Assembly: GCF_006539345.1 (NCBI RefSeq)
Contig: NZ_BJMV01000001.1
Coordinates: 186,001 to 250,000 of the forward strand
DNA from: Acetobacter peroxydans
GTDB lineage: Bacteria > Pseudomonadota > Alphaproteobacteria > Acetobacterales > Acetobacteraceae
Length of the DNA: 64,000 bases
Direction of reading: 5' to 3'
Both the position numbers and the translations under genes were made by a program. Positions 1 through 887 of this stretch are shown in pieces. Under the pieces are notes generated by a model that worked only from the letters and a program-made list of their open reading frames with translations, was not told the origin of the DNA and made no database searches. How positions within the stretch are numbered: position 1 is the stretch's first letter; every line of letters begins with the position of its first letter.

Positions 1-814
1 ATACGCTCTGGGTCCACTGGTAGGGAGCGCTGCAGGTGACATCCTGCGCCAGATCCATCCCTTCCAGTCCCGGCCATGCGCGGGCTGTGCTGGTGGCAGC
101 TTCAGGGTCGATCCGGCCGTCCTGCGGGAACAGCAGGATGGCGGTCTGCGGCCCGCCATCGCGGATGCGCAGCGTCAGGGCGCGGGTGTCCACCCCGGCA
201 ATGCCGGTTACGCCGCGCTCTTTCAGCCAGGCGTCCAACCCTTCGGTCGCGCGCCAGTTGGCGGGCGCGGTGACATCTTCCTTCACCACAAGGCCGCGTG
301 CGAACACGCGGGCGGCTTCGTCATCTTCCGCATTCGTGCCGACGTTGCCAATATGCGGGAAGGTGAAGGTGATGATCTGCCCGGCGAAGGAAGGGTCGGT
401 CAGGGTTTCCTGATAACCTGTCATACTGGTGGAAAAGCAGATTTCGCCCATGGACTGGCCTGCGTTTTCGGCCGCGCTCTGCGCGGGGGTAAAGGCGCCA
501 AAGCCCTTTCCCCAGAATACGCTTCCATCGGCGAGAACAAGAGCGGCGGTGGCGCCGTCCGGGCGGGCGTCGGGCATGGAGGTTCCTGTCTTGCTGCTTC
601 CCGTTGCGGGGGAGTGTCTGTCTGTCATGGTGGAGGCGGGGCGGAGGTCTTCCAGCGAAAGTCCCGCGGCCTGGGCGATAACCGGCCAGTGCCGGGCCGG
701 AATAGCCTGGGCCTGCCGCCATTTGCGGATGGCTTCTGTGCCCACGCCGGTCAGGCTGGCGGTGGCCTCTGGCCCGCCGAGGCGGGCAATGATGGAGTCG
801 ATCGACATGGACAT
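1..814 (-). CDS. carA: Carbamoyl-phosphate synthase small subunit with N-terminal HTH domain (3' end off window)
   Basis: CarA is the glutamine amidotransferase subunit that feeds ammonia to CarB for arginine and pyrimidine synthesis. Only the N-terminal CarA domain is in the window; the frame runs off the left edge. Typical CarA sequence begins at ATG 577 (ALVLADGSVFWGKGFG, then FSTSMTGYQETLTDPSFAGQ and FPHIGNVGTN). The frame stays open without a stop back to ATG 814 and adds 79 residues. Residues about 4-60 (IIARLGGPEATASLTGVG, then EAIRKWRQAQAIPARHWPVI) look like a YdaS/Cro-type helix-turn-helix, followed by a polar linker. As I recall, NCBI names a 'carph-isopro' domain after exactly such fusions, which would support expression from 814. 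GGGAGG lies 12 nt before ATG 814; an internal start at 577 has AGGA nearby and could also be used, making two isoforms. I checked the upstream 79 codons base by base. Confidence 0.88.
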   Translation of the reverse strand, partial: MSMSIDSIIARLGGPEATASLTGVGTEAIRKWRQAQAIPARHWPVIAQAAGLSLEDLRPASTMTDRHSPATGSSKTGTSMPDARPDGATAALVLADGSVFWGKGFGAFTPAQSAAENAGQSMGEICFSTSMTGYQETLTDPSFAGQIITFTFPHIGNVGTNAEDDEAARVFARGLVVKEDVTAPANWRATEGLDAWLKERGVTGIAGVDTRALTLRIRDGGPQTAILLFPQDGRIDPEAATSTARAWPGLEGMDLAQDVTCSAPYQWTQSV

Positions 815-887
815 GGCCTGGTTCTGCCTCCCGCCTGTGACGCTTCTGGCATCTGATGCGCAGGCTCTCTAGCACCCTGTCTGGGCG

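Follow-up and report, generated by a model that had tools for sequence, protein, structure and literature searches.

BirA, PutA and NadR are trigger enzymes in which a DNA-binding domain is fused to the enzyme, and to our knowledge none of the fused trigger enzymes is a carbamoyl phosphate synthase. A comparable architecture, an enzyme or enzyme-derived domain coupled to a DNA-binding domain and controlling its own pathway, is described for BzdR (PMC3602430). In E. coli, the carAB operon is regulated by PepA, PyrH, ArgR, PurR, RutR and IHF (PMC6245113).

Here, we analyzed a stretch of 64,000 nucleotides of Acetobacter peroxydans DNA (the window; contig NZ_BJMV01000001.1, positions 186,001 to 250,000), in which CarA, a subunit of the enzyme with which arginine and pyrimidine synthesis begin, carries a helix-turn-helix (HTH) domain at its N-terminus. 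Like BirA, PutA, NadR and BzdR, HTH-CarA joins a metabolic enzyme with a DNA-binding domain; what is particular to it, compared to these four, is a pair of predicted 17-bp operators in the −35/−10 spacer together with a retained internal start. It also resembles E. coli carAB in that control at the promoter level would be aided by a trigger enzyme. In E. coli, however, these enzymes are separate, unfused proteins that act in trans (PMC6245113), whereas in the case of HTH-CarA the operon would be regulated by one of the subunits of the very enzyme it encodes.

The HTH is a clear member of the NCBI family carph-isopro (NF046037), a name that the earlier note on this DNA had brought up and that indeed exists. 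Its search entry gives the domain name alone, without operator, promoter or function. In the literature searched, with most subscription journals outside, neither a paper with the term 'carph-isopro' nor, by titles and abstract starts, one on an HTH-CarA fusion was found. The catalogued domain and enzyme–DNA-binding fusions as a kind are thus already known; the operator pair, the promoter geometry, the lack of an operator at carA genes without the HTH, and an internal start that has been retained are new.

Results

HTH-carA lies on the minus strand, with its 5′ part at positions 1–814 of the window and its 3′ part past the window edge. Translation of positions 3–814 is uninterrupted: it begins with the ATG at 814, passes the CarA-type start at 577 and continues into CarA, bearing out the earlier observation of a carA frame open for 79 codons upstream of the usual CarA start. 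In the genome, the whole gene is a single ORF of 477 aa (185381–186814; L186 7381–8814). From residue 90 on, the fusion matches the carbamoyl phosphate synthase small subunit, and the full protein scores 444.4 bits against TIGR01368 (cut-off 307.35). C362, H446 and E448 (L197 numbering), the amidotransferase Cys, His and Glu, are invariant in 33 aligned fusions. An ORF of 1084 aa and then a further ORF follow on the same strand, 3′ of HTH-carA; by eye, these are CarB-like and GreA-like, respectively.

The HTH itself comprises residues 5–57 (644–802, minus strand) and scores 67.2 bits against NF046037, above the curated cut-off of 38. Two Pfam models remained below their gathering cut-offs, YdaS_toxin (PF15943) at 20.5 bits (cut-off 30) and P22_Cro (PF14549) at 19.9 bits (cut-off 30.2). 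AlphaFold2 predicts helices at residues 5–12, 15–22, 26–35 and 40–50 with a pLDDT of about 90, of which helix 26–35 would, by its position, be the recognition helix; residues 59–80 fall below a pLDDT of 50, indicative of a disordered linker. Modelled at full length, the A. papayae protein has the same head (mean pLDDT 77.6, with weak stretches within CarA). Xfaso 1, N15 and P22 Cro were the top Foldseek matches with probabilities of 0.99–1.00, at weak E-values (best 0.017, none at E ≤ 0.001), and a profile search returned Xfaso 1 Cro, N15 Cro and a hybrid at E-values of 0.0026–0.0045, with P22 Cro at 0.31. The fold is predicted to be Cro-like despite the sub-cut-off P22_Cro score. Of the 'YdaS/Cro-like HTH' proposed earlier, the HTH and, by predicted fold, its likeness to Cro stand; the structure prediction that the earlier note had suggested as a check yielded a four-helix Cro-like fold.

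The domain is conserved across the family. An alignment of 52 sequences shows no variation at G9, G10, E23, A24, R26, K27, W28, P35, H38 and W39 (alignment numbering), and across 24 Acetobacter loci dN/dS was 0.086 for the HTH versus 0.119 for CarA, placing the HTH codons under purifying selection in an estimate drawn from 184 overlapping, non-independent pairs selected by synonymous divergence. Among the best 80 of 375 relatives from named genomes, the nearest HTHs are those of A. papayae and A. suratthaniensis (98%). A chance open frame was considered for the upstream codons and is rejected on family-wide conservation together with dN/dS.

How widespread is the fusion? Of 200 genomes sampled from the family, 189 carry NF046037 above its cut-off, as do 198 of 200 genomes sampled from the order, all of them within the same family; in a sample of the class, it was present in 52 of 289 genomes, four of which belong to the family. 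We read 142 domain-bearing loci, some being repeats of one locus, from regions fetched mostly at one per genus out of the matches listed; 114 of them came from the family and 28 from outside. CarA was in frame with the HTH at 112 of the 114 family loci (105 once repeats were removed), the exceptions being L105, with a frame that terminates early, and L117, whose partner is a TetR-like protein. None of the 28 loci from other families had CarA in frame with carph-isopro. All of the best 80 loci kept from the 375 HTH relatives in named genomes were CarA fusions, of 441–500 aa. These locus counts are not phylogenetically independent. Of the first 79 codons, whose poor conservation the earlier note had named as a refuting outcome, the HTH part is kept family-wide and the linker is not.

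Upstream of the fused gene lies the palindrome TGGGAA-N5-TTCCCA, usually in two copies. The window genome (2.70 Mb) has exact copies solely at 890–906 (the proximal operator, TGGGAAnnnnnTTCCCA, conserved in relatives) and at 934–950 (the distal operator, likewise an exact palindrome, which lies 44 bp farther upstream, the paired spacing being conserved); neither is assigned a strand. The region 880–960, proposed earlier for a binding test, contains exactly these two predicted operators. A terminator-like match at 932–952 turned out to be the distal operator.

Within 330 bp of the domain, 92 of 105 non-redundant fused loci have the palindrome with at most one mismatch (67 exact, 25 with one), a level reached by 3 of 2100 dinucleotide shuffles. 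The other 13 have two (5), three (3) or four (5) mismatches, and four of the last five retain an exact GGAA-N5-TTCC core. The best 80 of the 375 named relatives gave a similar picture (58 exact, 19 with one, two with two and one with three mismatches, hence at most one in 77 of 80); these overlap the 105-locus set, and pooling the two left 167 non-redundant upstream regions. At least two sites with up to three mismatches occur within 200 bp in 149 of these 167, with a spacing of 37–40 bp in 105 loci and 44 bp in 25.

Genome-wide, an exact copy was found anywhere in 126 of 200 family genomes, compared, by our count, to 13 for a reversed control pattern. The exact sites listed number 75 and come from 57 of these 126 genomes. 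At 68 of them the carA HTH is no more than 400 bp away (56 of the 61 sites scored by program, in 46 genomes, and 12 of the 14 placed by hand, in 11 genomes); the seven listed elsewhere are in G015, G030, G034, G061, G095, G122 and G173. Two of the latter, G122:C1:512014 and G173:C1:506791, share an identical exact operator sequence away from carA within one genus, possibly a second target in that genus. One genome, G072, has 11 exact copies, against 0–3 in the other genomes listed. When up to two mismatches are allowed, the count in the window genome rises to 73 sites, versus 46 for the reversed pattern, and a wider regulon there is conceivable; the sole site inspected, C7:70581, falls within an ORF whose product, by eye, is an ABC-type ATPase.

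Does the operator follow the HTH? At 31 carA genes without the domain (28 outgroup, three family), no operator with up to two mismatches was found in 660 nt, the best matches having three (5), four (14) or five (12) mismatches. The outgroup comprised other families of the class, with 28 loci read of 43 outgroup genomes that had a carA match. The three family genes, each seen whole, belong to a genus mate (G488) and to two genomes of one other genus (G029, G116); since these two are the only genomes sampled of their genus, HTH-less carA in the family amounts to two lineages. The three genomes are 1.7–2.1 Mb in size, their carA loci have 44–46% GC compared to 65% here, and the circuit was perhaps lost during genome reduction. 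They were drawn from 13 genomes of the family that lack a clear HTH at carA, in which carA was whole in three, partial or at a contig edge in four (G026, G069, G146, G178) and without a match in six; the latter ten, as well as G595, stayed outside the absence control.

That the HTH reads the operators is something we infer from their co-occurrence. Alternatively, a separate carAB transcription factor might read them, with the HTH of CarA binding elsewhere or serving assembly only; a palindrome of this type could suit any dimeric HTH regulator, and the link between HTH and operator is itself a prediction. Yet the exact sites listed lie mostly at carA, the operator is missing at every HTH-less carA read, and a one-target factor gained and lost along with the fusion would be less economical, so that we deem a separate factor unlikely. 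Covariation hints at the HTH as well: with Gln directly behind RKWR, half-site position 2 is G in 547 of 604 cases, versus 15 of 44 with any other residue there (12 of 167 loci). L031, L078 and L135 lack the Gln and yet keep a TGGG site. As backing for the HTH as the reader, this recognition helix–operator covariation is suggestive, and confounded by relatedness.

A predicted operator (up to three mismatches) lies within 200 bp in 162 of the 167 regions, in two layouts that we refer to as near (87) and far (75). In the near class, to which Rhodopila and Roseomonas belong, a TTG stands exactly 6 bp ahead of the 17-bp operator at 78 of 87 loci, a TA follows within three bases at 59 of 87, and the HTH ATG begins 12–14 bp past the operator at 79 of 87. 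At these loci, the operator would mostly fill the −35/−10 spacer, just before the HTH ATG, and from this geometry the transcript should start at or near that ATG and be leaderless. The TTG position agrees with the −35 consensus 'ttGnnn' of the G. oxydans primary transcriptome, for which a loosely defined −10 and a number of mRNAs without a leader are also described (PMC5756330); the word 'carA' is absent from the main text of that study. In the far class, which includes the window, 49 of 75 loci have TGnTA at +14 past the operator (at +15 in the window), and the promoter-side operator arm, TTCCCA, occupies the −35 position. The arm in the window is 890–895; an extended −10-like element, TGCTAGAGA, recognized by the conserved TGnTA placement, lies at 866–874 on the minus strand, and its −10-like hexamer TAGAGA (866–871) is 18 bp from TTCCCA. 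A sigma-70 consensus scan found no promoter, and the promoter reading thus rests on conservation. In both layouts, a bound protein would be expected to cover the core promoter.

Might HTH-CarA activate its operon instead of repressing it? The Acetobacter-type promoter has a poor −35 (TTCCCA), with the distal site farther upstream, at a position open to an activator. In the 87 near-class loci, however, the operator mostly occupies the whole −35/−10 spacer, the usual place of a repressor. MerR activates from this spacer by distorting the DNA, and an activator bound here would need to do something similar. We therefore regard activation as quite improbable and repression as the better account of the promoter anatomy.

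Between the HTH and CarA lies a linker (578–643, minus strand) that is unconserved by alignment and of low pLDDT. It is followed, at the ancestral CarA start, by an internal ATG (575–577, minus strand) that the statistics of linker Met codons mark as a probable second start. A Shine-Dalgarno-like AGGA (584–587, minus strand) precedes this ATG by 6 nt, and a Shine-Dalgarno-like GGGAGG (827–832, minus strand) is located 12 nt before the HTH ATG at 814 and 18 nt before an ATG at 808. Among 160 parsed fused loci (of 166), 122 have a linker Met near the ancestral CarA start and 38 have none. A Shine-Dalgarno-like sequence precedes this Met in 90 of the 122 (90 of the 160 parsed loci), compared to 335 of 3189 random coding positions (10.5%) and 70 of 419 Met codons elsewhere in CarA. 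At the HTH ATG, such a sequence is found in 9 of 86 near-class versus 48 of 69 far-class loci.

The internal ATG with its frequent Shine-Dalgarno-like sequence might suggest that the HTH frame is an annotation artefact and that CarA is made from the 577 start alone. Purifying selection on the HTH codons, the invariant HTH residues, a TTG/operator/ATG geometry that puts the transcript start at the HTH ATG, and the loci without any linker Met render this exceedingly improbable. The earlier note had named exclusive use of the 577 start as one outcome that would undo its reading; this condition is too simple, for the sequence argues for both starts, 814 and 577. Retention of the internal start implies that plain CarA is probably also made from it in most species, beside HTH-CarA, in which case the repressor head would be found on only a fraction of the enzyme molecules. 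Going one step further, a leaderless or weak first start would yield little HTH-CarA repressor and the internal start the bulk of the enzyme as plain CarA. We lean towards this division of labor, which is a refinement of self-repression rather than a competitor to it. The excess of Shine-Dalgarno-like sequences at the internal start over random positions and their distribution at the HTH ATG in near and far loci speak for it; the 38 parsed loci without an internal Met speak against, as do the crudeness of the motif search and the prospect that retention is partly ancestral.

Outside the family, the domain sits on other proteins. Eight such fusions scanned comprised six Mitofilin/Mic60-like proteins, one NAD(P)H-hydrate epimerase/dehydratase and one crotonyl-CoA carboxylase/reductase; partner assignments among the 28 non-CarA loci leave out L041, L042 and L063. 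No isopropylmalate enzyme was among the partners identified in the nine non-CarA fusions scanned, these eight and the TetR-like one at L117.

Several of these loci merit description in their own right. In the 400 bp upstream of the 28 non-CarA fusions (L040–L068 without L062), CGTACG occurs in 36 copies at 20 of 28 loci, compared to a mean of 3.45 and a maximum of seven copies in 40 shuffles; it is absent from the 900 nt downstream and from 28 outgroup carA upstream regions, and several of the copies fall within the 3′-terminal part of a preceding ORF. The Mic60-type HTH might use CGTACG as its operator. The crotonyl-CoA carboxylase/reductase fusion (L066 1267–3066) has no CGTACG in the 400 bp upstream, and the epimerase/dehydratase fusion (L059) has a near-perfect palindrome, TTGTACGTATTTTACGTACAA, about 26–46 bp before the HTH domain. 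Within the family, the second copy in G038 (L117 392–1483) joins a carph-isopro HTH to a TetR/KstR-like partner, whose two TetR-type scores stay below the curated cut-offs, so that one chain has two possible DNA-binding domains. Finally, L153 encodes a free carph-isopro protein (1444–1680) divergent to a CI-like repressor gene (1721–2476) in a prophage-like region of a genome with an HTH-less carA, gene identities having been assigned by eye. This layout is that of a prophage cI/cro pair and fits a phage origin of the domain.

Discussion

What might an HTH do on CarA? The fusion, its conservation, the operators, their position in the promoter, their joint absence with the HTH and the internal Shine-Dalgarno-like start are all observed at the sequence level. 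An HTH on CarA together with matching paired palindromes in its own promoter suggests an enzyme that shuts off its own gene, and we consider it quite likely that HTH-CarA represses the carAB promoter via the two palindromes. Specifically, the glutaminase subunit of carbamoyl phosphate synthase would carry a domesticated phage-Cro-type HTH at its N-terminus, and HTH-CarA dimers or higher assemblies would bind the two TGGGAA-N5-TTCCCA operators of their own operon (HTH-carA, the carB-like and the greA-like gene). Bound HTH-CarA would block RNA polymerase, and the enzyme would thereby limit its own synthesis; the repressive effect, like the reading of the operators by the HTH, is inferred. With a DNA-binding domain and a conserved, predicted operator at its own gene, HTH-CarA has, by sequence, the attributes of a putative trigger enzyme.

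Reading the palindromes would require pairing of the HTHs, and CarA may be paired through assembly of carbamoyl phosphate synthase. In E. coli, this assembly depends on UMP, ornithine and IMP. Conceivably, then, synthase assembly or ligands such as UMP and ornithine tune repression here, and with CarA paired in this manner the promoter could read the state or the amount of the enzyme. The link from pyrimidine/arginine flux to transcription that the earlier note had suggested is likewise conjectural.

Phage Cro proteins are small repressors of their own promoter region, and Cro of P22, N15 and Xfaso 1 provided the best structural and profile matches to the window HTH. Unlike phage Cro, the domain described here sits on a housekeeping enzyme and would serve a chromosomal metabolic operon. 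Taken more broadly, carph-isopro could be a mobile phage-Cro autoregulatory head placed on unrelated alphaproteobacterial proteins with subclass-specific operators, TGGGAA-N5-TTCCCA for CarA and CGTACG clusters for many others. For CarA, one gene would then give rise to both a repressor-enzyme and a plain enzyme, forming a dual-product sensor in which synthase assembly reports the enzyme level. We put this generalization forward tentatively, with slightly more doubt than belief.

What would follow for the biology of these bacteria? The data provide a concrete predicted operator, a promoter layout and testable mutants, in a family that includes industrially used acetic acid bacteria. For the carph-isopro domains on Mic60-like proteins, a like question arises about relatives of the mitochondrial membrane organizer. 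If true, self-repression by HTH-CarA would mean that a phage Cro domain can be converted into feedback control of a housekeeping operon, and that, in almost all members of a bacterial family, a metabolic enzyme placed where arginine and pyrimidine synthesis diverge acts as the transcription factor of its own gene.
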